Positions 4,454-28,050 of a stretch of DNA of 64,000 nt are shown here, in pieces. Source of the stretch: OCS116 cluster bacterium AG-435-F03 (lineage in GTDB: Bacteria; Pseudomonadota; Alphaproteobacteria; MED-G09); the NCBI GenBank assembly GCA_003212795.1, contig QCOV01000001.1, positions 91,321 to 155,320 of the forward strand, given 5' to 3'. How positions within the stretch are numbered: position 1 is the first letter of the stretch; each line of letters begins with the position of its first letter. The position numbers and the translations under genes were made by a program. The notes beneath the pieces are model-generated. The model did no database searches. It was not told where the DNA came from and saw only the letters and a list, made by a program, of their open reading frames with translations.

Positions 4454-6040
4454 TTATCCAAAAACCTTTTTACCTAAATCATATTCTTTTAATTTGAATT
4501 TTTGTACTTTCGTTGATGACATAGGCCAATCATCAACAAAAACAACATATCGTGGAATTTTAAAATTAGATATTTTTCCTTTTGCAGATTCTATGAGCTC
4601 TTCAGCAGTTATATTTGCTCCCTCTTTTTTTTCAATAAAAAGAGCTGGAACTTCACCTAATCTTTCATCATCAACCCCGATTACTTGGCTAATCATGACT
4701 CCTTCATAATTATTATAAAAAGACTCAATTTCTAAAGCAGCAACATTTTCACCACCAACTTTTAACATATCCTTCAATCTTCCGTGATAACTAATAAATC
4801 CATCTTCACTCAATGAGCCAAAATCTCCTGTTGATAGCCATCCATCAGAAGATATAGTTTCTTTAGTTTTAGTTGGATCATTTAAATAACCTTTAAATAC
4901 TGTTGGTCCACTTATTTCAATTAGACCCTTTTCTCCTGAAGGCATTTCTTCCCCTGTTTCAGGGTGAATAATTCTAATTTTAACGCCATTAAATGGTCTT
5001 CCGCTAGTTGTAATTCTTTTTTCAAGAGGATCATCTGGTGAACCATATGCGCAAACACCACTAGCTTCAGTTAAACCATATGCCGAAACTTGTTTTGCGT
5101 CAGGTAATGCTTCTTGGAATGATCTTAATGTATCAACTGGCGCAACATTATTAATAATTCTTAGTTTAGGTAATTTTGAAGAGCTAAATTCAGGGTGATT
5201 AACAAGAGCTAGCATAACAGCAGGAAATGCAGGAAAGGCAATTGAAACTTCAGACTCTTCAAGAACTTTTAATGATTTATCGGGATCAAAATGGACTGTG
5301 GAAATAAATTCTGATTTAGCCATTAAACATGCTGAAAAAGGAAGTATTGAAGACATATGAAACATTGGTAAAGGATCCCAAAAAACATCACTGCTAGATA
5401 TATTCCATCTTTCCATCATTGCCTCTGTCGCATGCATCATATTATTATGGCTCAAAGGACATCCTTTTGGATTTGATGTGGTGCCGGATGTATACATAAT
5501 GAATGCAGTATCCTCTCCTTCACTTTGAGGTTCATCAAGATTCTCTGATGATATATCTAAGTTTAAAAAATCATCAAAATTAAGCAATCTGTCATCTTCA
5601 GTACCTCCTATGACATAGGTATTGATAAGTGAGTCAATGTTTTGATCATTTGTATCTAAAACTGACAATATGAGATCAGAGAAATTAGTTATTTCATCTG
5701 ACTCTGAAGAGATGAATAAATATTTGCATCCGCTGTCTTTTAAAACATAATCTAATTCATGTGTTTTGTATCTCGCGTTTATACATACAGGCGATAACCC
5801 CGCATACATTGCTCCATACATTAATTCTAAATATTCAATTGAATTGAAAAGTAGTATTCCTATTTTATCCCCTTTGTTTAAACCAAGAGTTATAAATCTT
5901 TTTGCGTGAAGCAAAATATTTTCAGAAAATTCAAAATTACTTCTTTTAATATCGTCAACGATTAGACAGTTTTCTTCTTTATTATTATCATTATAGTTTG
6001 TTGCAAGTGCAGCAATATTTCTAAATTCTTTTGAAGCCAC
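4454..6040 (-). CDS. Acyl-CoA synthetase (AMP-dependent ligase)
   Basis: 528 residues from GTG 6040, chosen because GGGAGG lies 7 nt upstream; an ATG nine codons earlier would overlap that site. ANL-superfamily motifs are present: P-loop-like YTSGTTSNPKG, A5 YGLTEASG, A7 STGDFG, and A8 GRLKDMLKVGGENV. The C-terminal lysine region reads SSTKVQKFKLKEY rather than the usual PTGK(I/V). The enzyme should adenylate a carboxylic acid and form its CoA thioester. It is monocistronic, converging on the SnoaL-like gene and divergent from the ABM-synthetase pair. Confidence 0.88.
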   Translation of the reverse strand: MASKEFRNIAALATNYNDNNKEENCLIVDDIKRSNFEFSENILLHAKRFITLGLNKGDKIGILLFNSIEYLELMYGAMYAGLSPVCINARYKTHELDYVLKDSGCKYLFISSESDEITNFSDLILSVLDTNDQNIDSLINTYVIGGTEDDRLLNFDDFLNLDISSENLDEPQSEGEDTAFIMYTSGTTSNPKGCPLSHNNMMHATEAMMERWNISSSDVFWDPLPMFHMSSILPFSACLMAKSEFISTVHFDPDKSLKVLEESEVSIAFPAFPAVMLALVNHPEFSSSKLPKLRIINNVAPVDTLRSFQEALPDAKQVSAYGLTEASGVCAYGSPDDPLEKRITTSGRPFNGVKIRIIHPETGEEMPSGEKGLIEISGPTVFKGYLNDPTKTKETISSDGWLSTGDFGSLSEDGFISYHGRLKDMLKVGGENVAALEIESFYNNYEGVMISQVIGVDDERLGEVPALFIEKKEGANITAEELIESAKGKISNFKIPRYVVFVDDWPMSSTKVQKFKLKEYDLGKKVFG

Positions 6041-14971: not shown

Positions 14972-15742
14972 ATGACGGATGATATAAAAAAGAAAATTGA
15001 TGTTGTATTTGTTGTAAGCGGTAAATGGCACGATATTGATTTTGCTAGATTAGAAATTTTAAAATTACTAGCAGAAGATGAAAGAATAAGAACACGAGTT
15101 TTTGAAGATTATTCAAATCTTCATGCCATAGAAAATGCAGATTTCTTGATTACTTATACATGTGATGTTTGCCCAACACTTGAGCAGCAAAAGGTTTTAA
15201 GGAATTATGTTGAATCTGGTAAAAGGTGGTTTGCGCTTCATGGAACTAATTCAATTTTAAATTTTGAACCTGATGGAAAAGTGGATAGTCCAAGAATAGC
15301 ACCTATAATGATGGAAACCTTAGGTTCTCAGTTCATAGCCCACCCACCGATAGAGCCTTATAAAGTAGAGGTATCTCAACCTAATCATCCTCTTGTAGAG
15401 GGCTTCGAAGAATTCGAAACTACAGATGAACTTTATTTAATGGACTTACATGGGGATTTAGATGTTTATCTTGAAGCTAATTATGGTGGAAAGGCTGAGG
15501 GGTTTGTAGAGGATGATTGGCCTCAGAAATCTTGGCCTGTATTCTATTCAAAAAAAGTAGAAAAAGGTGAGGTTTTATATTTAACACTAGGCCATGCCAG
15601 AGGTCATTATGACATGCATGATTTACCTAATCCTGTGGAGTACTATCCAGCTGTTGAAAGGTGTGCCTGGGATTTTCCTCAATTTTACACTCTTCTTAGA
15701 AGAGGAATTGATTGGGCAAAAGAGCTCTCACTAAAAAATTAA
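14972..15742 (+). CDS. ThuA-like domain protein
   Basis: 256 residues with the ThuA pattern: VVFVVSGKWHDIDFARLEIL, DFLITYTCDVCPTLEQQKVLRNYVESGKRWFALHG, VEGFEEFETTDELYLMDLHGD and VLYLTLGHARGH. The last segment (GHARGH) is the conserved His-rich C-terminal strand of the family. Its reaction is unknown. It is embedded between two SDR genes of the Rieske group and is a second, divergent copy of the fold found at 11347-12186. It ends 1 nt before the next SDR starts, implying coupled translation. Confidence 0.78.
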   Translation: MTDDIKKKIDVVFVVSGKWHDIDFARLEILKLLAEDERIRTRVFEDYSNLHAIENADFLITYTCDVCPTLEQQKVLRNYVESGKRWFALHGTNSILNFEPDGKVDSPRIAPIMMETLGSQFIAHPPIEPYKVEVSQPNHPLVEGFEEFETTDELYLMDLHGDLDVYLEANYGGKAEGFVEDDWPQKSWPVFYSKKVEKGEVLYLTLGHARGHYDMHDLPNPVEYYPAVERCAWDFPQFYTLLRRGIDWAKELSLKN

Positions 15743-15743
15743 A

Positions 15744-16445
15744 ATGTCAAAAAAAGTAGCTCTTGTTACTGGAGTTGGACCGGGAACAGGTTCATCTATA
15801 GCTCGTCGTTTCTCTGATGGCGGTTATAAAGTAGCTATGATTGCTCGCGATAAAAAGAGACTAAAGTCACTTGAGAACGAACTAGAGGATAGTAAGGGTT
15901 ATTCTTGTGAGCTAAGGAATCAAGAATATCTTAACAGTACAGTTGACAATATTATAAAAGATTTCGGTTATCCTGATGTTTTTATTCATAATGCTGTTAG
16001 AGGAACTAGAGGTAATTTTTTGGAATTTACTTCTGAAGAATTACAATCGAATTTTGATATAAATGTTCTAGCTCTGCATAGAATAGCTCAAAAAGTTGCT
16101 CCCGAAATGATTAAAAAAAATAAAGGCGCTATAATCGTAACAGGTAATACATCAGCACATAGGGGTAAAGCAAATTTTGGAGGAACAGCTTCAACAAAGG
16201 CGGCTCAGAAAATATTAACTGAATCTTTCGCTCGTTATCTTAACCCCAAAGGAATACATGTTGCATACATAACTATTGATGCAGCTATTGATTTAGAGTG
16301 GACAAGAAAAGCTTGGCCAGATAAACCTGATGATTTTTTTATTCAACCAGATGATATAGCTTCTGAGGTTTGGCACATTGCGCATCAGTCAAAATCAGCC
16401 TGGACATTTGATCATTGGTTAAGACCTTTTGGTGAAAATTGGTAA
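15744..16445 (+). CDS. SDR-family protein with altered active site
   Basis: 233 residues with the nucleotide motif TGVGPGTGSS (9-18) and HNAVRG in place of NNAG. At the YxxxK site the sequence is T148-A-S-T-K152, so the tyrosine is absent while the lysine is retained. A subset of SDRs with an FxASxK-type site is known, so this may be a natural variant. The C-terminus (TFDHWLRPFGENW) lacks the classical DGG end. It is last in the Rieske group, starting 1 nt after the ThuA-like stop. Confidence 0.8.
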   Translation: MSKKVALVTGVGPGTGSSIARRFSDGGYKVAMIARDKKRLKSLENELEDSKGYSCELRNQEYLNSTVDNIIKDFGYPDVFIHNAVRGTRGNFLEFTSEELQSNFDINVLALHRIAQKVAPEMIKKNKGAIIVTGNTSAHRGKANFGGTASTKAAQKILTESFARYLNPKGIHVAYITIDAAIDLEWTRKAWPDKPDDFFIQPDDIASEVWHIAHQSKSAWTFDHWLRPFGENW

Positions 16446-16468: not shown

Positions 16469-16486
16469 TGTTGTAATTATGCAACA
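16469..16486. promoter_or_regulatory. Candidate operator: 18-bp palindrome upstream of a TonB receptor
   Basis: TGTTGTAATTATGCAACA forms an imperfect inverted repeat with 7-nt arms (one mismatch) and a 4-nt centre, 118 nt before the receptor start at 16605. It matches 16 of 18 bases of the site at 25425-25442, upstream of another receptor. Arms of TTGTA/TACAA type are bound by several one-component regulator families. The binding protein is not in this window. Confidence 0.5.
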
Positions 16487-16604
16487 TAATTCAGATATTT
16501 TAGTATAAATTCATACATAATATAAATTAATGATAATTTAGTTGGTCTTTTTTTATAATTTGTTATATCACACTCTTCTTACTATTAAATCTGGGGAGAT
16601 TTTT

Positions 16605-18854
16605 ATGAAATTAATTAAATATTTTTTAATATTCGCAATTACTTTTTCTTTTTTAACTCAAGAAAAAATAAGTGCGCAAACAGACAGCCCATCTGAATAT
16701 ACTGTCGAAGAAATTCTGGTCACAGCTAGAAAAAGAACAGAGTCTATTCAAGATGTTCCTGTTGCTGTTTCAGCTTTAAGTATTTCTCAAATTGAGAGAG
16801 GAAATATACAAAGAGTTCAAGATTTAGAAAAACTTGTACCTAATGTTGAAATGTCTGATATGGCTTTTGCAGGCGGCGCAATTAGTGCTGGTATTAGAGG
16901 TCTAACATTTGATGATTTAGAAAAAACATTTGAAACAACAGTTGGTGTTGTTATTGATGGTGTTTTTGCTGCTTCTAACTCTGGGGTTGACCTTGATCTT
17001 TTTGATCTTGAGTCAGTTGAGGTACTTCGTGGTCCACAAGGTACACTTTTTGGAAGAAATACAATTGGTGGCGTTATCAATATTAATAGATCAAAACCAA
17101 CTAGAGAGTTTGGAGCTAAAATTAAAGTTGATCTAGAAGAAGATAACACAAGCGATCTTAAGCTCATTCTTAATACACCTCTAGGGGATAAAGGCGGAAT
17201 GAAGATTGCCTTGAGAAAGCTTCAAAGTGACAGCTTTATGTTTAATGTAACACGAGATGAAAGAGAGAAAGCTCGTGACTTAGAATCAGCTTCTGTATCT
17301 ATAGATTTTGATCCTTCAGAAAATGTTAATGTAAACTTCATTTTTGATAACTATAATGATAATTCGCAACACAATCTTCTCGCAATCACTAAATTTTATG
17401 TAAACAATGTAGGCGCTCCTCAGGGGGTTTTTGCTCTTCTTGGCCAAGGTGCGGCTGGCTCTGGTGATCTATCAGCAGCTAATGATTATGAAACTGTTTA
17501 CTCTGCAGAACCTTTTTTAAGTGGTATTCAAGGAAATAACATGACTTTAAGAGTTCAATGGGAACTAGAAAACCATACTCTTAAATATATCGCTGGTAAT
17601 AATGACTTTAAGGAACTTATGGATATTTGTTCATGGGGATCACCTGGAGCTGTTGTTACTCCGAATTGTGTTTTCCCAGTAGTAAGAGATCAGAATTACG
17701 AACAAACCTCTCATGAGGTACAGTTAATATCTGACTCTGGTGGTCCATTAAATTATACATTAGGTCTTTTTTATATTGAGACTGAAGCAAATATGGATTC
17801 TGGACCTGCATCAAATTTCCAATCACAACAAGAAGCTGAAGCTCAAGCAATATTTGGAGATTTATCATATGATTTAAGTGAAGATTGGACATTAGGTTTA
17901 GGTCTGAGATACACTGAGGAAGAAAAAGATTTTGCAATCCAAACATATGGTGGAGTTGCACAAAAATTAGCTAAAGATCCTAAGATTCTTGATCTTTCTA
18001 GAAGCTTTAAAGATGATAATCTCCAGCATAGAGTTGTTATTCAAAGAAATACTGACTTTGGGATGATTTATCTTTCTCATTCAACTGGTTTTAGAAGCGG
18101 TGGTTTTAATGCTAGAGGATCGACACTTCAATCTGTTGGACCATATAATTCTGAAGAAGTTGAAACAATTGAACTTGGATTAAGAAGTGAATTATTTGAT
18201 AACAGAGTAGTTTTAAACTTAACTGCCTTTACTAATGATTATACAGATAAACAAGAAGTTATTGTAACAGCAGCAGATGGTTCTATTGTTGTCGAGGGAG
18301 TTCCACAGTTTTGTGGCACTACATGTACTTTCGTAAGAAATGCAGGTGAAGTTTCCATAGACGGTTTAGAAATTGAAGGTACATTTAGAGCAACTGAAGC
18401 TTTAACCCTTAGAACAGCTATTGGTGTACTTGATTCTGGTTATGATAAGTTTGAATATGACGGACAAAATGTTGCAGCTGCGGCACAACTAAACTTTGCC
18501 CCTGATTATACTGCGAGTTTAAGCTGGGAATATGTAACAGAATTTCTTAGTGGAGAACTTGTTTTTGCTGGTACTTTTTCTGCAAAAGATGAATTCTATG
18601 GTAGATTTGATCCAGCTGTATATAATTATGAATTAGGTGCTAATATGGCAGTTGATAAAACTGAAAAACTTGACCTAGCATTAACTTATACACAAGATAA
18701 TCCAAATGGAAGCACAATGACATTTACAATCTTTGGTAATGATATACTTGAGGAAGGTGGTTACATAGTTAGACCATTTGACGCTGGTGCATTTGCTTTC
18801 GCAACTCCTCAAAAGAGACAACATTTTGGAATATCTTTAGGACTTGAGTTTTAA
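16605..18854 (+). CDS. TonB-dependent outer-membrane receptor
   Basis: 749 residues from ATG 16605, placed by GGGGAG upstream; an earlier in-frame codon at 16542 has no ribosome site and would mask the signal peptide. A signal peptide ends near SAQ (residue 24), followed by the TonB-box-like EEILVTARK and SIQDVP. The plug contains VEVLRGPQGTLFGRNTIGG. The 22-stranded barrel ends with terminal F. This iron-complex-type subfamily often imports non-iron nutrients. It is flanked upstream by the shared palindrome and downstream by a terminator. The ligand is unknown. Confidence 0.92.
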   Translation: MKLIKYFLIFAITFSFLTQEKISAQTDSPSEYTVEEILVTARKRTESIQDVPVAVSALSISQIERGNIQRVQDLEKLVPNVEMSDMAFAGGAISAGIRGLTFDDLEKTFETTVGVVIDGVFAASNSGVDLDLFDLESVEVLRGPQGTLFGRNTIGGVININRSKPTREFGAKIKVDLEEDNTSDLKLILNTPLGDKGGMKIALRKLQSDSFMFNVTRDEREKARDLESASVSIDFDPSENVNVNFIFDNYNDNSQHNLLAITKFYVNNVGAPQGVFALLGQGAAGSGDLSAANDYETVYSAEPFLSGIQGNNMTLRVQWELENHTLKYIAGNNDFKELMDICSWGSPGAVVTPNCVFPVVRDQNYEQTSHEVQLISDSGGPLNYTLGLFYIETEANMDSGPASNFQSQQEAEAQAIFGDLSYDLSEDWTLGLGLRYTEEEKDFAIQTYGGVAQKLAKDPKILDLSRSFKDDNLQHRVVIQRNTDFGMIYLSHSTGFRSGGFNARGSTLQSVGPYNSEEVETIELGLRSELFDNRVVLNLTAFTNDYTDKQEVIVTAADGSIVVEGVPQFCGTTCTFVRNAGEVSIDGLEIEGTFRATEALTLRTAIGVLDSGYDKFEYDGQNVAAAAQLNFAPDYTASLSWEYVTEFLSGELVFAGTFSAKDEFYGRFDPAVYNYELGANMAVDKTEKLDLALTYTQDNPNGSTMTFTIFGNDILEEGGYIVRPFDAGAFAFATPQKRQHFGISLGLEF

Positions 18855-18872
18855 TTATTACAAAATACAATC

Positions 18873-18902
18873 AAAGGGCGCTTTTTGCGCCCTTTTTTTT
18901 TA
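18873..18902 (+). terminator. Rho-independent terminator after TonB receptor 1
   Basis: A perfect 9-bp stem, AAAGGGCGC (18873-18881) with GCGCCCTTT (18887-18895), and a five-T loop are followed by a run of T. It lies 18 nt after the receptor stop. Confidence 0.9.
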
Positions 18903-18986
18903 TAAAATATTTAATGATTTAATTTATTTTTAAAAGAATCACATTATTTTGTAGCCCATATAATTTAGTCTTGGGGAGGTTAACTT

Positions 18987-21215
18987 ATGAAAAACATTAG
19001 ATTATTTATTATCTTTTTTGCTTTAATTGGTTTGGTAATTAGCAAAGAAGGTTTAGCGCAATCAGAATCTTCAGAATCTTTTACAGGTATTGAAGAAATA
19101 ATTGTTACAGCACGTAAAAAAGAGGAGCCTTTACAGGAAACTCCAGTCACGATTACTGCTTTAACAGATGCAAAGATTCAGAAACTTTATGCTACGGATT
19201 TAAAAGACTTAGGTATGAGTGTTCCTAATCTAGTTATTAACCAAGCTGCAAGTGGAAGTTTTAGCAACTCCGCCGCAGTTTTTATGAGAGGTATTGGTAA
19301 TTCTGATATTGACTCTACGATTGATCCACCAATTGGTATCTTTATTGATGGTGTTTATGTCCCAAGATCTAGTAATAGTAATTTAGATCTTTTTGATGTT
19401 GAGCAAGTAGAAGTCTTAAGAGGACCACAAGGCACTCTTTTTGGAAGAAACACAACTGCCGGAGCAATTGTAGTTCGATCAAAAAGACCAACCGGTGAAT
19501 TTGGTGCTAAAGCTCGTCTTACTATGGGTGAATATGGTAGAAGAGATTTACGTGTAGCAGTTGAAGCCCCTTTATCAGATACTGTAAATGCTAAAATTTC
19601 AGTTTTACAACAAAAAAGCGATGGGTTTTATAAAGCTAGATATCTAACACATCCTGATTATTCGGTTCCAGCTCAAATGAGTTACGAATATGATGGAGAT
19701 TATCAAGATACTGGTGGCGATGATCTTTTTTCAATAAGACCAATGTTGGAATTTAATCCTAATGAAAATTTCACACTTACTCTTATAGGTGAATATTCTA
19801 AAGATAGAAGTGAACCAACTCCAGCTATAAATGCTGCAAAACCTAATATGGTTTTGAGCAGAGTCTACGGTCGGCCAGGTACTGGTTACTCTAATATAGG
19901 GACTTATAATTTTGGTCCCGGTTATATTCATGCAGATATAAAAGGTCTAACTGCTGAGGCTGTATGGGAATTAGAAGGCGGTACTCTAACATCAATTACA
20001 AATTACAGGGAAACCGAATATCAGTATAAAGGGGAAATAGATTGGACTGATGCCCCAATGTTTGGCATTGTTCGTACAGAACCTCATGAACAAAAATCTA
20101 CAGAGCTTAGATATAATACTGATTTAAGCGATAGACTTTCTCTGACTGCAGGTATTTATTACTTTGAACAAGAGTATGAATTAAGAAGGGATACATTTAT
20201 TAATACTTCTGGTGCATTTCTGGCACATATTATTGGTGTGACTTCTCAAACTCATGAACAACAATCTGTATTTGCTGACTTAACTTACGCTATAAGTGAT
20301 CGATTAAACTTTAGTTTTGGTGGCCGTTATACGAAAGAGGAAAAAAGCTTTATGCAAAAACCTTTCTCAGTTGGGAATGTGGCAGCAGAAATTTATAAGG
20401 ATGACGAATGGTCTAATTTTGGACCTAAGGTCGGTATTGATTATCAAATTGATGAAGATAAGTTGCTTTATGCTACACTTGCTAGAGGATTCAAAAGTGG
20501 TGGTTTTAACGGTAGAGGAGGTACTCCTACTACATTAGGCCCATTTGATGAAGAAAGTGTGGATGCTCTTGAAATTGGTTTAAAAGCTGATTGGGGATCA
20601 ACATTAAGGACAAATGTAGCTTTCTATCTTATGAGATTTGAAGATCTTCAAAGAACTGTTATTAGGCCTCTAATTAACTGTGGTTGTCCAAACCCACAAG
20701 AAACTATTACTGCTAATGCGGCTGAAGCTGAAATTAAAGGTATAGAGATTGAAATTGAATGGGTTCCAAACGATAACTTTAATTTAGGTGTAGCTTTAGC
20801 ATTTAATGATGCTGGATATGAAGAATATTTTGCTGATGTGTTTGGTACAGGCGCTCAAGATTACTCAGGTCTTCCATTACAAAATGCTCCTGATATAACT
20901 GCTGCTATTAATATGTCTTATAGTATTGATATGGCAAATAATGCTTCAACAGTTATTAATCTTGGGTGGCAGTATCACGATGATTTAAATGCTAGTGTTA
21001 CCGGCTATGCACCTGCTGATATTGATGCTAGGGGCTTATTAAATGCTAGTATTGATTATATACCAGCTGAAGGAAATTGGAGAATTTCTGCATATGGTAA
21101 GAATCTTGCTGATGATGTAGATAAAATAGCTGTTACTAATGTCTCTGTTTTATTTGACCTTGCGTTTTACAGCAATCCACGTGTTCTAGGTGTTGAGTTA
21201 GCCTGGGAATATTAA
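18987..21215 (+). CDS. TonB-dependent outer-membrane receptor
   Basis: 742 residues. A signal peptide ending around LAQ is followed by EEIIVTARKKEEPLQETPVTITAL. The plug contains VEVLRGPQGTLFGRNTTAGAIVVRSKRP and the barrel ends in WEY with a terminal aromatic residue. GGGGAGG lies upstream of the ATG. It is similar in architecture to the first receptor but clearly divergent, and lacks the TGTTGTA palindrome. It is bracketed by terminators, so it is transcribed alone. Ligand unknown; the region suggests a hydrophobic organic compound. Confidence 0.92.
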   Translation: MKNIRLFIIFFALIGLVISKEGLAQSESSESFTGIEEIIVTARKKEEPLQETPVTITALTDAKIQKLYATDLKDLGMSVPNLVINQAASGSFSNSAAVFMRGIGNSDIDSTIDPPIGIFIDGVYVPRSSNSNLDLFDVEQVEVLRGPQGTLFGRNTTAGAIVVRSKRPTGEFGAKARLTMGEYGRRDLRVAVEAPLSDTVNAKISVLQQKSDGFYKARYLTHPDYSVPAQMSYEYDGDYQDTGGDDLFSIRPMLEFNPNENFTLTLIGEYSKDRSEPTPAINAAKPNMVLSRVYGRPGTGYSNIGTYNFGPGYIHADIKGLTAEAVWELEGGTLTSITNYRETEYQYKGEIDWTDAPMFGIVRTEPHEQKSTELRYNTDLSDRLSLTAGIYYFEQEYELRRDTFINTSGAFLAHIIGVTSQTHEQQSVFADLTYAISDRLNFSFGGRYTKEEKSFMQKPFSVGNVAAEIYKDDEWSNFGPKVGIDYQIDEDKLLYATLARGFKSGGFNGRGGTPTTLGPFDEESVDALEIGLKADWGSTLRTNVAFYLMRFEDLQRTVIRPLINCGCPNPQETITANAAEAEIKGIEIEIEWVPNDNFNLGVALAFNDAGYEEYFADVFGTGAQDYSGLPLQNAPDITAAINMSYSIDMANNASTVINLGWQYHDDLNASVTGYAPADIDARGLLNASIDYIPAEGNWRISAYGKNLADDVDKIAVTNVSVLFDLAFYSNPRVLGVELAWEY

Positions 21216-21223
21216 AATATAAT

Positions 21224-21250
21224 AAAGCGACCAATTAATTTGGTCGCTTT
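21224..21250 (+). terminator. Hairpin terminator after TonB receptor 2
   Basis: A perfect 11-bp stem, AAAGCGACCAA (21224-21234) with TTGGTCGCTTT (21240-21250), and a 5-nt loop. The T-run after it is short (ACATTTCTTA), so termination may be weaker. Confidence 0.75.
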
Positions 21251-21310
21251 ACATTTCTTATTTCATCATGTTTATTTAATAATACTAACTCTTTGGAGGG
21301 GAGACAGATT

Positions 21311-23209
21311 ATGTTTGTGAGAAGTTTTTTTATATTTTTTGTATATTTACTATTAATTGCTAATTTACAGGCAAACGAATACTCTCCTGCAGTAGGAAAA
21401 AATTATCCTGATAAACTTTTATGGGGAGATACACATCTTCATACTAATGAATCAGCAGATGCTTGGTCAATAGGAAACCCAAATTTAACACCAAGTGACG
21501 CCTTTCGTTTTGCTAGAGGAGAAGAGGTAACTTCTGAAAGTGGAGTAAGGGCAAAATTAAGGGTACCACTTGATTTTTTTATGGTTTCAGATCATGCAAC
21601 TTATCTTGGTGTTTTTAAAAGAATTAAAGCTGGTGATGAAGATCTTATTAAAAGGCCTTTAGGTAAAAGATGGAAAGATTATATGGACAATGAAGATCCT
21701 AGACTCTTTACCGAATTTGTTGAAGGTCTTAACGGGAACCAGGAAGTATCTTTTAATAAAGAAATATATATCCCTATCTGGAAAGAAATTACTGAAAATG
21801 TTGATAGATTTAATCAACCAGGTGTTTTTACGGCTTTTATTGGCTATGAGTGGACTCCTGCACCAACAGGTGACAACCTTCATAGGGTTGTTATCTTTAA
21901 AGATGATGCAAAAAAGGCCCAAGAGATAATACCTTTTTCAGCACTGGATAGCGATAAACCTGAAGACCTTTGGAATTTCTTAGAAAATTATAATAAAAAT
22001 ACTGGTGGTGAGGCTATCTCTGTTTCACATAATAGTAATATAAGCGGTGGTCGAATGTTTCCTCTTAAAAATTCTTATGGAGAAGCCATTGATCGCGCTT
22101 ACGCAGATATGCGTAATAGATGGGAGCCTTTAGTAGAAGCAACACAAGTTAAAGGAGATAGCGAAACTCATCCAGCTGTATCACCTGATGATCCTTTTGC
22201 AGATTATGAGACATGGGAAGGCAACATAGGAAGAAATGAAACTGACAGGCTAGAAAGGTTGAGTAACACAGGAGAATGCGCCAATACAGAAAATTATAAA
22301 TGTTATAGATACAAAGAAAGTGAAACTGATCGATATAGAGGCAGCTATGTTCGGCCTGCATTAAGAAGAGGTTTAGAAATACAAAAGAAAATTGGTGTAA
22401 ATCCATTTAAATTTGGGGTAATAGGCAGTACTGACAACCATACAGCATTAGCCGCATCCGCTGAGGATAATTTCTTTGGAAAATTTGTTGATTCAGAGCC
22501 TGGACCAGGTCGAATGAGTAATTGTATGGCAGGTTGTGACAGACCTGATGGAGACGGTCAAGGAGATCTATGGCGTAATTGGTTAATTTCTGCATCAGGC
22601 TATGCAGCTGTTTGGGCAAGAGAAAATACGCGTGAGGAAATTTTCGATGCTATGAAACGAAAAGAAACATATGCAACTACTGGACCAAGAATGGCTGTAA
22701 GATTCTTTGGAGGTTGGAACTTTTCAAAAGAAGACTCCTATAAACCGAATTTTGTTGAAATTGGTTACACAGAAGGTGTTCCTATGGGCTCAGACTTGGG
22801 ACCAAGAGAGAGAGGTAAATCTCCAGGATTTTTAGTTATGGTTTCAAAAGATCCAAATGGTGCAAATATTGAACGAGTTCAGGTTATTAAAGGATGGATT
22901 GATTCATATGGTAGATCAAAAGAAAAGATATATGATATAGCGATTTCTGATGATGCAGGTGAAAATACTGTTGATGTAGAAAATGCTACTTATTCTAATT
23001 CAATTGGCGAAGCCTATATCTCTACTTTTTGGGAAGATCCAGACTTTAATCCAAATCAATCTGCATTTTATTATGTTAGAGTTTTAGAAATACCAACACC
23101 TCGCTGGACAACCTATGATAGTGCGGTATTTGGAATTGATATTCCATCATATGTCCCGAAAACGCATCAAGAAAGAGCTTACACATCATCAATATGGTAT
23201 AATCCATAG
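21311..23209 (+). CDS. DUF3604 family protein, exported
   Basis: 632 residues from ATG 21311 (GGAGGGGAGA upstream; an in-frame codon at 21293 lies before that site). The signal peptide ends near LQA. PHP/amidohydrolase-like metal motifs are visible: GDTHLHTNE (H42, H44), SDHATYLG, GYEWTP, SVSHNSN and GSTDNHTA. RKETYATTGPRM is a family hallmark. The reaction is not established; the motifs suggest a metal-dependent hydrolase in the periplasm. It overlaps the next PpiC gene by 1 nt. A second DUF3604-PpiC pair lies at 39505-42565. Confidence 0.85.
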   Translation: MFVRSFFIFFVYLLLIANLQANEYSPAVGKNYPDKLLWGDTHLHTNESADAWSIGNPNLTPSDAFRFARGEEVTSESGVRAKLRVPLDFFMVSDHATYLGVFKRIKAGDEDLIKRPLGKRWKDYMDNEDPRLFTEFVEGLNGNQEVSFNKEIYIPIWKEITENVDRFNQPGVFTAFIGYEWTPAPTGDNLHRVVIFKDDAKKAQEIIPFSALDSDKPEDLWNFLENYNKNTGGEAISVSHNSNISGGRMFPLKNSYGEAIDRAYADMRNRWEPLVEATQVKGDSETHPAVSPDDPFADYETWEGNIGRNETDRLERLSNTGECANTENYKCYRYKESETDRYRGSYVRPALRRGLEIQKKIGVNPFKFGVIGSTDNHTALAASAEDNFFGKFVDSEPGPGRMSNCMAGCDRPDGDGQGDLWRNWLISASGYAAVWARENTREEIFDAMKRKETYATTGPRMAVRFFGGWNFSKEDSYKPNFVEIGYTEGVPMGSDLGPRERGKSPGFLVMVSKDPNGANIERVQVIKGWIDSYGRSKEKIYDIAISDDAGENTVDVENATYSNSIGEAYISTFWEDPDFNPNQSAFYYVRVLEIPTPRWTTYDSAVFGIDIPSYVPKTHQERAYTSSIWYNP

Positions 23210-24057
23210 TGAGAAAAAAAATTGTTGTAATTGTTGGTTTGATAATTGGATTGTCAATAATAGCTCTAAGTACAATCCAATCTACCTCAGATATTAATGA
23301 AGATGTAATTATCGTAAATAATAAAAACTTAGAGATTTTTTATTTTAATAACCTTGATCCTGAGAATCCATATAACCAAGATTTTAGTATTTTATCTGAT
23401 AAACAAATAAATCAATTAAAAAAAGAATTTATTCAAAGGGAAGTTTTAGTAAGGGAAGCTAAAAGACTTGGTCTAGATAAAATTGATTCAATTATATCAG
23501 CTCGCCTTGCTCAATTAGGACAGCAAGCTCTTGTTGGTGAAATTATCGAATTTGAGGATATTGAATTAAGTGAAATAAATGATTTCTTTGAAACAAACAA
23601 ATCACAATATATCGAATCTGAAACCATATCTTTCTCCCATATTTTCTTTGATACAGAGGAAAGTGCTAAATCTTATTTATTAAAATTACAAAAAGAATCT
23701 GATGTTGAAAAATTGAAAAGGCTAATAAATATTGGTGGTATTGTTTTCCCTTATCAAAAGAATTATTCAAAGAAACCCTTTTCTTTTGTTGTTGGTCATT
23801 TTGGTGAAATAGGTGCAACGAATCTTTTTTCATTACAAAAAGATATAAAGAATTGGCAGGGCCCAATAAGATCATCTCTTGGATATCATCTTGTTAATGT
23901 ATTTAATAGAACACCAATGAAACAAATGGCTTTGGAAGATATTTTACCTGCGGTAAAGAGAGATTATTATGATCAATTAAGAAAGAAAGATTCGAAAAAT
24001 ATTATATCTAATAAAATTTTAGAATATGAAATAATTGATGAAACAAAAGTTAATTAA
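23209..24057 (+). CDS. PpiC-type peptidyl-prolyl isomerase, membrane-anchored
   Basis: 282 residues from GTG 23209, which shares one base with the DUF3604 stop. An N-terminal membrane segment (about 4-22) is followed by an N-domain helix region (LSDKQINQLKKEFIQREVLVREAKRLGLD) and a parvulin-like domain (SEIN...ETISFSHIFFDTEESAKSYLLKL; later IGATNLFSLQKDIKNWQGPIRSSLGYHLVNV). The segment GPIRSSLGYHLVNV matches the C-terminal parvulin strand. It probably assists folding of an exported partner, most likely the co-translated DUF3604 protein (inference). Convergent with the P450, overlapping it by 4 nt. Confidence 0.85.
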   Translation: MRKKIVVIVGLIIGLSIIALSTIQSTSDINEDVIIVNNKNLEIFYFNNLDPENPYNQDFSILSDKQINQLKKEFIQREVLVREAKRLGLDKIDSIISARLAQLGQQALVGEIIEFEDIELSEINDFFETNKSQYIESETISFSHIFFDTEESAKSYLLKLQKESDVEKLKRLINIGGIVFPYQKNYSKKPFSFVVGHFGEIGATNLFSLQKDIKNWQGPIRSSLGYHLVNVFNRTPMKQMALEDILPAVKRDYYDQLRKKDSKNIISNKILEYEIIDETKVN

Positions 24058-25328
24058 ACTTGATCAAATTCAATATAAAGGTTGTCTAAGCCTCTTAATA
24101 AAACATTAGGACTATAAACAAAATTATTTCCTTCTGAAAATCTCATATTTTTAAGTCTATCTAATATGATTGGAAAAGCTGTATACATTTCTTTTCTTGC
24201 TAAATTCATACCTAAGCAAACATGAATACCTTGCCCAAAAGCTATATGTCTTCTAGCATTTTTTCTAGTAACATCAAATTTATCAGGATTTTCAAATAAG
24301 TCTTCATCTCTATTTCCTGAGCCATATCGAATTAAAATTACTGAACCTTTAGGTATATCTACGCCACCTAGCTCAGTATCCTCAGTCGCAATTCTCCACA
24401 TGTTATTAGTAGGGGTTAATAATCTTAGCGCTTCTTCAACCATATTAGGGATTAAACTGTGATCATTTACAACTAATTCCATTTGATCAGGGTTTGAAAT
24501 TAACAAATAGAAAGCCTCAGTAATTGTATGTGCTGTTGTAGCGTTACCAGCAACCAATAATTGTTGTAGAATAGATAATTGTTCAGCTGTTTCTAATTTT
24601 CTATTTTTACCATTCTCATCTTCGAAATCAAGATTTGCTAAGTCTGAAATTATATCATCGGTTGAATTATTTTCTTTCTCTTTTAATTTATTTGCAAAAT
24701 ATTGCTGAAATTGAACTAGTTGTTTTGCAATCGCGATGTGTTCTTCTGGAGAACTTGTTCCAGAAAGCTGTTGAACAAACGCATCTGACCATCCACAAAA
24801 ATTATCATAATCTTCTAGAGGAACTCCAAGTTGTTCAGCTATTACTCTAACGGGTAATTGTTGAGCTATATCTATACTAACATCACACTTACCTTGATCA
24901 TAGAATTGATCGATTATAAAATTTATTTTATCTTCGATTTCTGGTCCCATATCTGAAACTCTTGCTGGTGAAAAAGCTTTGTCAACTAAACTTCTATAGC
25001 TTGTATGTCTTGGCGGATCTGCAGTAAGCATTGTATCAACAGGAGGGTATCCATCGGAAGCCATAATATCAGCAGCTTCTTGAGGATAATCACCACCTCC
25101 GCTTCTTTGAATTGTTCCAAATTGGTTAGAAAAAAGCTTAGCATCTCTTGCAACTTTACAAATTAGTTCATGCTTTGAAACTTGAAAAATTCCTGTATTT
25201 GGATCCTGATATACGGGCGCCTCATCACGAAGTTTTTTAAAAAAAGCATGAGGGCAAGCCATAAGCTCAGGGTCAAAAATATTAATCTTTTCAAGATCTT
25301 CATCTAAGGGTTTTATAGCTTCGCTCAT
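24054..25328 (-). CDS. Cytochrome P450
   Basis: 424 residues. The heme-binding loop is FGQGIHVCLG with Cys371, the ExxR motif is E299-ALR-R302, and the heme-propionate region reads TADPPRHTSYR. The I-helix reads A260-G-N-A-T-T265, so the acid of the usual AG(x)D/E-T pair is replaced by Ala263. Bacterial class I P450s need ferredoxin and reductase, neither adjacent here. Family members hydroxylate terpenoids, steroids or fatty acids. It is monocistronic and divergent from TonB receptor 3, which may share regulation. Confidence 0.92.
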   Translation of the reverse strand: MSEAIKPLDEDLEKINIFDPELMACPHAFFKKLRDEAPVYQDPNTGIFQVSKHELICKVARDAKLFSNQFGTIQRSGGGDYPQEAADIMASDGYPPVDTMLTADPPRHTSYRSLVDKAFSPARVSDMGPEIEDKINFIIDQFYDQGKCDVSIDIAQQLPVRVIAEQLGVPLEDYDNFCGWSDAFVQQLSGTSSPEEHIAIAKQLVQFQQYFANKLKEKENNSTDDIISDLANLDFEDENGKNRKLETAEQLSILQQLLVAGNATTAHTITEAFYLLISNPDQMELVVNDHSLIPNMVEEALRLLTPTNNMWRIATEDTELGGVDIPKGSVILIRYGSGNRDEDLFENPDKFDVTRKNARRHIAFGQGIHVCLGMNLARKEMYTAFPIILDRLKNMRFSEGNNFVYSPNVLLRGLDNLYIEFDQV

Positions 25329-25424
25329 TAAAATAGCTCCAATTTTTTGACTAGTAATTATAATATATAAGGCTTTTCAATATTTAATTACAAGAAATAA
25401 TTAATATCATAAAATAAATTAAAA

Positions 25425-25442
25425 TGTTGTAATAATACAACA
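25425..25442. promoter_or_regulatory. Candidate operator: 18-bp perfect-arm palindrome between P450 and TonB receptor 3
   Basis: TGTTGTA (25425-25431) and TACAACA (25436-25442) are exact inverted repeats around ATAA. The site lies in the 253-nt divergent gap, 97 nt from the P450 start and 140 nt from the receptor start, so it could control either gene. It matches the site at 16469-16486 in 16 of 18 bases. The rest of the gap is AT-rich with no other clear element. Confidence 0.55.
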
Positions 25443-25581
25443 AAACATGTGAAATTTTATATCTTTATAAATAAATTATATATTTATTCTTGACGAAATA
25501 TATACAAATTGAGATGCTAAATAGTAAAAATTATTAGTTTAAAATACTGATATATATACATTTTTTAAATGGGGAGACATT

Positions 25582-28050
25582 ATGAAAAAATTAGTTTCGT
25601 TTGTCATGGTTGGCTTATTTTCTGCTGTTTTTATTTCAGAAGATGTTTTTTCTCAAGATAGTCCGGCTGTTTCAAATCGTCAAATAGACGAAATTATTGT
25701 TACATCAAGAAAAACTGAAGAAAATATTCAGGATGTTCCAGTGGCTGTTTATGCTGTTGATGAAAAAGCTCTTGATGACTTTAGACCAACTACTATGCGA
25801 GATCTAGATAGTATGGCACCAAACTTACAAATAGGCATGAATACTGCTTCAGGAAACCAAGGTGCGATTTTTGTTAGGGGTTGCGGTTATGCTGAAGTTG
25901 AGAAAACACAAAACCCTCCTGTAGGTTTGATTGTTGATGGCCTATTTTTGGGAACAAATACTGGTACATTAATGGATGCATTTGATTGGTCAAAAATACA
26001 AGTCAATTCAGGACCTCAAGGTGTTGTATATGGTAAGAATACATCATGCGGTAATGTTGTTGTTGAAAGAAATAGACCTTCAGATGAGTTTGAGTTTGAT
26101 ACTGAAATTTCAGCAGGTAACTATGAAGCCTATGAGTTGGGTATAATTTTAAATATCCCGATCACAGAAAATGTTTCTTCACGTTGGAATTTTAGAAAAT
26201 TAGCACACCAAGGTTATTATGATAACCTTGCCACAGGTCAAGACTCTGGGCAATTAGATATTGCTGCTGCAAGTGCGAGATTTCTAATTGATGCAAATGA
26301 AAACACTGAAATTTATATTGTTACTGATTGGTATTATGACAGGGGAGATACTGCTCCTGTAGCATATTCCGGTAATCCATTTGGACCTGGTTGCGTACCA
26401 AATTTTGGTGCTGGTTTAGGTCTTGTTGGTGCACCTGATAATGGATGTACACCAGGTTTAGGCGGTGTTACAGCTACTGAATTAAGCACTGCAGGCGCTG
26501 CAATTGGTATAACTCCATTTGCTGGATTTGCTGGATTAGAGCCTTTCTTCTCTCAAACAGAAGCATATCCACCTCATGTCGTTAATCTTGATAACCCTGA
26601 ACAATCTGATATGGATTTTGTAAGAGCAAGTATGGAGGTTGTTTCTGACACTGAACTTGGTGAGCTTACTTATGCCGTGTCTTATTTACAATTAGATGAT
26701 AATGTTCTTCAAGACTTTGATGCTTTGCCAGGTATTGCTGGTGGACAAGGTAATCCTGCAACGCTAGGTGGAGCTCTTCATACAGCAAGAAACCAACACT
26801 TTAGTCAGTATTCACAAGAAATAAGGATAACAAATGATATTACAGATCAGCTAAATTTAACTGCTGGCCTTTTCTTATGGAAGGACTCTATTTTTTTACA
26901 ACAGCATTCTGGTGGTGTTGTTCAAACCTCTGGTCAGGACACTGAATCATATGCAATTTTTGCTTTAGCTAGGTTTGATGTAACTGATACTGTATCAGTT
27001 TCAGGTGGTATTCGTTATATTGATGAAAAGAAAACCTTTCATACACAATATAATCAAATAGTTGGACCGGGCACTTATGGAACTGTTGCTTGGTCAGAAG
27101 CGCCTGTTGTTCTTCCTAGATTTTCTAAATCAAATTCTTGGGATGACTATATGGGCGAGGCTACTGTAGATTGGCAAGTAAATGAGGATAGTCTTCTTTA
27201 TGCTCGTTGGTCTAGGGGCTTCAGATCAGGTGGCTATTCAATGAGACAAGCTGCTTCAGAGTCTCTTACACCTACAAAAGTTGCAGCGTTAAATGCTCAA
27301 GGTTTTGGTCTAATTCCTCAAGCTCATGCATGCGATACATGTGATTACGGTACTTTTGAACCTGAGTTAACTGAATTATTTGAAATTGGCTCAAAAAATG
27401 TTCTTATGGATGGAGCCTTACAAATTAATGGTGCGATTTTTCAAACCACTACTGAAAATTTCCAAGCAGCTAGTATTTTAACTACTCAAGGAGCTTATCG
27501 TCAGACCGATACTTACATAAATAACTATGGGGAAACTGAAATTAGCGGTGCTGAAGTATCAATAATTTGGCTTCCGCCAGTTGATGGTTTAACTCTAAGA
27601 CTTCATTATGGAATATTAGATCCAAAAGTTAATGAAGCAGTAGTTGATTCTGGTAGGTTAGGAGTTGGTGGCGCACCTACAGCTTCAGGAATTATGGTTG
27701 ATCTTGTTGGTGGTGGTAATCCTCCTCAATTAGGAAGAGTTCCAGAGTATAGTTTTGCGTTTACTGCTCTTTATGAGTATGAATTGTCAAATGGTGCTTC
27801 ATTAAACACTAATATTACATATAGAGGTGTTGATGATCAAAACCTAACTGTTTCATCATTTCCAGATGTTGAGTTAGGTTATGAACTTCTAGACGCAACA
27901 ATTACATATGATGCAGGTGACTGGTCATTAGCTCTTATTGGAAGGAATTTAACTGATGAGGCATATAGAACTCATTCACTTACTTCTGTTAGGTTCCAAG
28001 GCTGGGGCGATCCTGCAACTTGGATGCTAGAATTAAGAAATTCTTGGTAA
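25582..28050 (+). CDS. TonB-dependent outer-membrane receptor (divergent plug)
   Basis: 822 residues. The signal peptide ends near FSQ, followed by IDEIIVTSRKTEENIQDVPVAVYAV. The plug carries FVRGCGYAEVEKTQNPPVGLIVDGLF and then VNSGPQGVVYGKNTSCGN in place of the canonical VLRGPQGTLFGRNTxGG, introducing two plug cysteines. The barrel ends in LRNSW. GGGGAG precedes the ATG. It is longer than receptors 1 and 2 by about 75 residues. The ligand is unknown; divergent placement from a P450 suggests uptake of the P450 substrate. Confidence 0.9.
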   Translation: MKKLVSFVMVGLFSAVFISEDVFSQDSPAVSNRQIDEIIVTSRKTEENIQDVPVAVYAVDEKALDDFRPTTMRDLDSMAPNLQIGMNTASGNQGAIFVRGCGYAEVEKTQNPPVGLIVDGLFLGTNTGTLMDAFDWSKIQVNSGPQGVVYGKNTSCGNVVVERNRPSDEFEFDTEISAGNYEAYELGIILNIPITENVSSRWNFRKLAHQGYYDNLATGQDSGQLDIAAASARFLIDANENTEIYIVTDWYYDRGDTAPVAYSGNPFGPGCVPNFGAGLGLVGAPDNGCTPGLGGVTATELSTAGAAIGITPFAGFAGLEPFFSQTEAYPPHVVNLDNPEQSDMDFVRASMEVVSDTELGELTYAVSYLQLDDNVLQDFDALPGIAGGQGNPATLGGALHTARNQHFSQYSQEIRITNDITDQLNLTAGLFLWKDSIFLQQHSGGVVQTSGQDTESYAIFALARFDVTDTVSVSGGIRYIDEKKTFHTQYNQIVGPGTYGTVAWSEAPVVLPRFSKSNSWDDYMGEATVDWQVNEDSLLYARWSRGFRSGGYSMRQAASESLTPTKVAALNAQGFGLIPQAHACDTCDYGTFEPELTELFEIGSKNVLMDGALQINGAIFQTTTENFQAASILTTQGAYRQTDTYINNYGETEISGAEVSIIWLPPVDGLTLRLHYGILDPKVNEAVVDSGRLGVGGAPTASGIMVDLVGGGNPPQLGRVPEYSFAFTALYEYELSNGASLNTNITYRGVDDQNLTVSSFPDVELGYELLDATITYDAGDWSLALIGRNLTDEAYRTHSLTSVRFQGWGDPATWMLELRNSW

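Follow-up and report, generated by a model that had tools for sequence, protein, structure and literature searches.

The window analysed here is a stretch of 64,000 nucleotides from the genome of OCS116 cluster bacterium AG-435-F03 (contig QCOV01000001.1), and it carries two 18-bp palindromes, each located upstream of a gene for a TonB-dependent receptor (Table 1). A sequence-only reading of the window had described the two 18-mers as agreeing in 16 of 18 positions and as lying upstream of receptors of one family. Both are present with 2 of 18 positions different, and the genes behind them both match the Pfam Plug and beta-barrel families. Site 1 is nearly palindromic and the arms of site 2 are fully so. 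The distance to the start codon is 118 bp for the likely ATG of receptor 1 and 139 bp for the ATG of receptor 2. As had also been said, site 2 stands upstream of a cytochrome P450 gene, 96 bp before it, and may or may not act on that gene; the divergent pair with the intervening site is retained in two genera (g1 and g2). The other two receptors in the window (18987 and 30990) indeed lack a good copy, their best scores being -2.3 and 7.4. A search for TGTTGTA-N4-TRCAACA with at most two mismatches hit nothing in the window except sites 1 and 2, giving four strand matches against 1.12 expected, and 5 of 100 shuffles reached as many. Taken by itself, the evidence from the window is modest.

Table 1. 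Features in the window and related genes elsewhere in the genome (G000).
Feature	Coordinates	Strand	Remarks
Palindromic site 1	16469..16486	none	TGTTGTAATTATGCAACA, TGTTGT-N6-GCAACA
Palindromic site 2	25425..25442	none	TGTTGTAATAATACAACA
ThuA-domain and SDR genes	14972..16445	+	directly upstream of site 1; same neighbours beside the site in relatives
Predicted promoter, receptor 1	16542..16569	+	-35 TTGGTC 16542-16547, N16, -10 TATATC 16564-16569
TonB-dependent receptor 1	16605..18854	+	Pfam Plug + beta-barrel; likely ATG 16605 after GGGGAG
Cytochrome P450	24054..25328	-	Pfam PF00067; divergent from receptor 2
Predicted promoter, receptor 2	25490..25518	+	-35 TTGACG 25490-25495, N17, -10 GATGCT 25513-25518
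TonB-dependent receptor 2	25582..28050	+	Pfam Plug + beta-barrel
mini-ntrX	G000:C1:399463-399675		71-residue protein, NtrX DNA-binding end; outside the window, ~283 kb away
RHH-PII	G000:C2:217772-218263 (L150; relatives L151-L163)	-	PII with N-terminal extension

The whole genome (G000; 1.44 Mb, 32% G+C, 95.8% complete) was covered. Two-mismatch matches numbered 20+21, and a reversed control gave 18+18, which is background, so that only near-perfect copies carry information and the analysis was restricted to these. There are four copies of the strict core GTTGYW-N4-WRCAAC, at sites 1 and 2, at C1 399427 before a tiny gene and at C2 218473 near a PII gene. Three of the four lie outside called open reading frames, and the fourth overlaps just the over-long 5' end of a frame with a mis-called start. 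Besides these, a copy with one arm base changed (C3:4742) precedes the glutamate synthase gene gltB (Pfam-confirmed), and a receptor at C4:87174 has a degenerate copy here and a perfect core in relatives (L038, L221). A scoring matrix built from 40 sites of other genomes, with the genome's own sites left out, ranked site 2 first (24.9) and site 1 second (23.8). The next scores were 22.2, 21.3 and 19.7, and the sixth (18.3) was an in-gene match; two matches with lower scores, one in mnmG (C2:200317) and one at C4:126544, were discounted. Among 19 TonB-like receptors, crudely identified, only 2 have a strong site and 17 have none.

The same core was counted in 18 genomes of the PS1/MED-G09 clade of Alphaproteobacteria, a group of small marine bacteria, the set consisting of metagenome-assembled genomes (MAGs) and single cells, whose kinship inflates all such counts. 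Of 53 core sites, 46 were intergenic: 20 at TonB-receptor promoters, 8 at gltB, 15 at the tiny gene, here called mini-ntrX, and 3 near the PII gene. The remaining 7 were in genes, six of them in one VOC-family gene (L141, L144, L145, L149, L225, L231) and one on G003:C7 (L220), and were discounted. Site 1 is retained before its receptor, after the ThuA and SDR genes, in G000 and G002-G005 (g1) and in G011 and G017 (g2). Site 2 is retained before the corresponding receptor in G000 and G004 (g1), G008 (g3), and G009 and G011 (g2). The flanks have diverged across genomes and GTTG...CAAC has stayed constant, with the consensus [TA]GTTGY-N6-RCAAC[AT], the half-site TGTTGY and its variant TGTGGY. 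Frequent occurrence in coding DNA or absence from related genomes would have spoken against a shared signal, and neither held: no core in G000 lies inside a real gene, and both window sites are kept at orthologous promoters across species and genera. The proposal of a single regulator shared by some of the uptake genes is supported, in that orthologous promoters keep the sites and most receptors have none, and the set extends beyond the window receptors to gltB, mini-ntrX and receptors elsewhere.

The mini-ntrX gene supplies the candidate regulator. The only significant curated domain in its product is a Fis-family helix-turn-helix (Pfam HTH_8). The best NCBIfam match is to NtrX (NF051870, positions 404-451 of 452), and the protein aligns with residues 405-453 of the DNA-binding domain of B. 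abortus NtrX (5m7n) at E 3e-15. An AlphaFold2 (AF2) model, with a predicted local distance difference test score (pLDDT) of ~90 over the helix-turn-helix, has NtrX as its best structural fit (fold match at a root-mean-square deviation of 0.4), followed by NtrC4 and, third, by Fis. A domain search of the 71 residues matched HTH_8 alone and found no receiver domain; nor was the central AAA+ domain found, the NF051870 score being 70 bits where the cut-off of the family is 600.

The gene order tells what happened to the rest. Like full ntrX, mini-ntrX stands before trkA, and it occupies the place that ntrY-ntrX has in relatives (metG-[ntrY-ntrX]-trkA). Comparison of holB-metG-ntrY-ntrX in the syntenic relative L255 with holB-metG-mini-ntrX-trkA-hfq in G000 gives ntrY and most of ntrX as the losses. 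No ntrY lies beside mini-ntrX, the gene directly upstream being metG, and NtrY queries of the genome returned NtrB and other kinases as best matches, with low scores. NtrB, NtrC and RpoN are retained. An open frame of 72-97 codons for mini-NtrX was found in 15 of the 18 family genomes, and it is also present at 13 named loci from the PS1 / OCS116 / MED-G09 group, some perhaps from the same genomes. Class-wide, 202 of 240 genomes match mini-NtrX, and nearly all of the listed frames run to ~450-550 codons and so represent full-length NtrX; in genomes beyond the family, short frames are few (e.g. G044, G048). In g2, the conserved N-terminus of mini-NtrX, MDKFLVIDLDMDIR, resembles the start of the NtrX receiver (M..ILIVDDEADIR). 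NtrX may thus have undergone an internal deletion that kept the frame, although this is suggestive only. One contig with full ntrY-ntrX-trkA (G015:C34; L130, L235), in a family genome that has mini-NtrX as well, shows the canonical arrangement and is probably contamination from another alphaproteobacterium.

The palindrome is present at every mini-ntrX promoter found, in 15 of 15 family genomes and 13 of 13 named loci, and in g2 its outer pair is changed symmetrically (AGTTG..CAACT). In all 15 genomes a conserved -35 box ([GA]TGACA) is followed, after exactly 17 bp, by a -10-like hexamer, and this hexamer is the middle of the palindrome. Elsewhere the site is placed further upstream. At gltB its centre is at -49/-50, upstream of the predicted -35, in 9 of 9 cases. 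Relative to the predicted promoters, the centre of site 1 is near -100 and that of site 2 near -92. Three genera keep the predicted promoter element of receptor 2, and the site lies at -92 in g1, -82 in g3 and -71 in g2. These steps of 10-11 bp equal one helical turn, as expected of an activator contacting polymerase. Site 1 fits this less exactly, its relatives having centres at about -100, -89 and -71; the predicted -35 of receptor 1 is common to the orthologs L027 and L029, with a site distance of 44-45 bp there and 55 bp here. In the g2 receptors the centre is at about -71 in 5 of 5.

From these arrangements we infer the following scheme. NtrX would have lost its receiver and AAA+ domains, and NtrY would have been lost, so that the C-terminal Fis-type helix-turn-helix remained as mini-NtrX. 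A dimer of it would bind the 18-bp palindrome. At gltB and a few TonB receptors, two of them in the window, the site stands upstream of the -35 box with centres near -50, -71, -82, -92 and -100, and the bound dimer would therefore most likely activate sigma-70 promoters in a Fis-like manner. At its own promoter, where the -10 box falls in the centre of the palindrome, bound mini-NtrX would block RNA polymerase and so repress its own gene. Without a receiver domain, the protein may act through its amount alone. Overall, we consider it probable that mini-NtrX reads the palindrome, activates gltB and the receptors, and represses itself.

If mini-NtrX has kept the specificity of NtrX, the half-site is expected at ntrY promoters of other Alphaproteobacteria, which provides an independent test. 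We examined 30 ntrC-ntrY spacers, with dinucleotide shuffles as the control. The top pentamer was GTTGC/GCAAC (20 of 30 spacers). The top hexamer was TGTTGC/GCAACA, found at 15 loci against a shuffle mean of 3.4 and a maximum of 9, while the best of all hexamers in the shuffles reached at most 14 loci. The second hexamer, TGTGGC/GCCACA (12 of 30), is akin to the TGTGGT variant half of the G000 gltB site. Inverted half-sites favoured a 6-bp gap (6 loci, against a shuffle mean of 0.13 and a maximum of 2), which is the spacing of the window sites and their 18-bp geometry. Everted pairs with a 1-bp gap numbered 8, and these would look like the CAAN3-5TTG motif published for S. meliloti NtrX (PMC9223101). 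The relative L255 has TGTGGTATTTATGCAACG between metG and ntrY. The palindrome CGCA-N6-TGCG, which topped a first ranking, belongs to the end of the ntrC coding sequence and was rejected. As a separate observation, a small AT-rich genome has a GTTG-N7-CAAC palindrome, GTTGTTAGTTACAAC, upstream of ntrY (L245 3108-3122); with its spacing one base shorter than in the PS1 site, it may be a variant NtrX operator.

Several points weigh against assigning the palindrome to mini-NtrX. A significant 18-bp site was present in just 11 of the 30 ntrC-ntrY spacers, so it is not universal; the loci also lack independence, L247 and L250 being closely related, and half-site variants with G at position 4 were partly picked from the same data. 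Loci in which ntrY does not follow ntrC gave no overall enrichment. The window sites fit neither CAAN3-5TTG nor the GCAN9TGC motif proposed from R. sphaeroides (PMC7240162): they read TTG-N8-CAA, with the half-site of the former in the opposite arrangement. They are also even-centred, as opposed to the odd-centred sites of NtrC and Fis and the published GCAN9TGC. The promoter boxes are predictions, and several sequences in the scan allow other promoter choices. Finally, the copy near the PII gene is confined to g1, has a tRNA gene between itself and the PII gene, and lacks a clear promoter downstream.

How else could the sites be explained? Chance similarity between AT-rich spacers gains something from the base composition of the genome and from the weakness of two copies in one window, as seen in the shuffles. 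In view of the sites kept at orthologous promoters of different genera despite diverged flanks, the genome ranks 1 and 2, intergenic placement and the fixed geometry at gltB and mini-ntrX, it is negligible. Another candidate is a regulator of a different family (e.g. TetR, GntR, MarR or Rrf2), with mini-ntrX as just one of its targets. In its favour, even-centred 18-bp palindromes are common in such families, and our transcription-factor survey used single-sequence queries, which may miss divergent members. A TetR- or GntR-type protein had been suggested by the sequence-only reading and is not supported. The survey gave no GntR, MarR or CRP/FNR match and one weak TetR match of unusual protein size (a CRP/FNR-type regulator had been suggested by the TTG-N8-CAA look), and such a regulator would leave unexplained both the site at every mini-ntrX gene and the recurrence of this half-site, equally spaced, at the ntrY promoters of other Alphaproteobacteria. 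The evidence favours the NtrX-type (Fis-family) domain, and we hold a regulator of another family to be rather unlikely.

Two further candidates are nitrogen regulators, and gltB is a nitrogen gene. RHH-PII, a PII protein with a conserved N-terminal extension of ~50 residues resembling a ribbon-helix-helix (RIQLVAS..SHSESIRRLVKIAL), might bind the palindrome and sense nitrogen directly at the same genes. It is full length in 14 of the 18 family genomes, accompanied by a second, ordinary PII, and a core site lies 188-194 bp away in three g1 genomes. On the other hand, no nearby site was present in the g2 and g3 genomes checked, a tRNA-Gly gene separates site and gene in g1, genomes without RHH-PII also show the TGTTGC-N6-GCAACA signal at their ntrY promoters, and the ribbon-helix-helix assignment comes from a sequence pattern and a low-confidence AF2 model (pLDDT 58). 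A DNA-binding PII, here putative, would be unusual, and we regard this candidate as improbable. In its favour, the ribbon-helix-helix domain of E. coli PutA presumably recognises GTTGCA; PutA itself as the regulator was rejected, a PutA query giving no match in the genome. Full-length NtrC (C1:386228-387664) is even less likely to read the palindrome. It is kept together with NtrB and RpoN, but the known NtrC site, TGCACC-N5-GGTGCA, differs, the target promoters resemble sigma-70 rather than -24/-12 promoters, the half-site is enriched at ntrY promoters without the same being shown at NtrC targets, and a predicted autoregulatory site stands at mini-ntrX. None of RHH-PII, NtrC and a regulator of another family accounts for the ntrY-promoter motif and the mini-ntrX placement together.

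The surroundings of RHH-PII have features of their own. The strong palindrome copy (C2:218472-218489; L024 4473-4490) lies between a DUF4278-like small frame and the tRNA-Gly gene, 194 bp from RHH-PII, and is retained in three g1 genomes. On the minus strand at L024 ~4490-4900 there are small frames with repeated YRG motifs, one of which matches DUF4278 slightly over the cut-off. A cobalamin riboswitch (Rfam RF00174, 95 bits; L024 4898-5073) is directly upstream of a BtuB-like TonB receptor (G000:C2:219145), for which B12 control is expected independently of the palindrome. Elsewhere in the class, RHH-like domains stand alone (L379). Receptors 1 and 2 of the window match general TonB families only (Pfam, NCBIfam).

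With the palindrome assigned to mini-NtrX, the system is a variation on a familiar type of regulator rather than something new in kind. Fis is an activator of sigma-70 promoters that acts from an upstream position and also represses its own gene, and mini-NtrX resembles it as a free-standing NtrC-family helix-turn-helix with a matching fold. It differs in deriving from NtrX instead of NtrC, in having no evident N-terminal beta-hairpin arm (the AF2 model shows no strands), and in using few symmetric 18-bp sites where Fis uses many degenerate 15-bp sites. The NtrC operator is likewise a palindrome for a related helix-turn-helix in nitrogen regulation, with another half-site, another spacing and an odd centre. 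With NtrX of NtrYX (B. abortus 5m7n; S. meliloti, PMC9223101; R. sphaeroides, PMC7240162), mini-NtrX shares the DNA-binding domain, the gene place before trkA, probable autoregulation and the GTTGC/GCAAC half-site at ntrY promoters; it differs in lacking receiver, AAA+ domain and NtrY, in its length (71 residues against ~450-470), and in a regulon of TonB receptors and gltB that is not described in that literature (PMC9223101, PMC7240162). NinH of phage lambda is also a short stand-alone Fis/NtrC-like helix-turn-helix dimer (the mini-NtrX dimer being predicted), but it is a phage protein, with no regulon or NtrX gene context reported (PMC7166090). Morett and Bork 1998, as cited in PMC7166090, proposed that Fis arose from NtrC.

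The finding thus exceeds a palindrome common to two receptors: for some of the TonB receptors in a marine clade represented here only by MAGs and single-cell genomes, a regulator, its operator and its regulon can now be predicted. It also points to TGTTGC-N6-GCAACA, accompanied by everted neighbours, as a cleaner operator for NtrX, and this could help reconcile the conflicting published motifs. A more far-reaching version is unlikely on present evidence: a regulator cut down to its DNA-binding end would have become an unphosphorylatable, Fis-like, self-limiting activator of a small regulon, tying the uptake of organic matter across the outer membrane to glutamate synthesis; in the extreme form, RHH-PII would have taken over nitrogen sensing for these genes and would act together with mini-NtrX or upon it. 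If the assignment to mini-NtrX is true, it would be an independent case, like that of Fis from NtrC, of a response-regulator DNA-binding domain turned free-standing, and one in which the gene order reveals what was lost from NtrYX.

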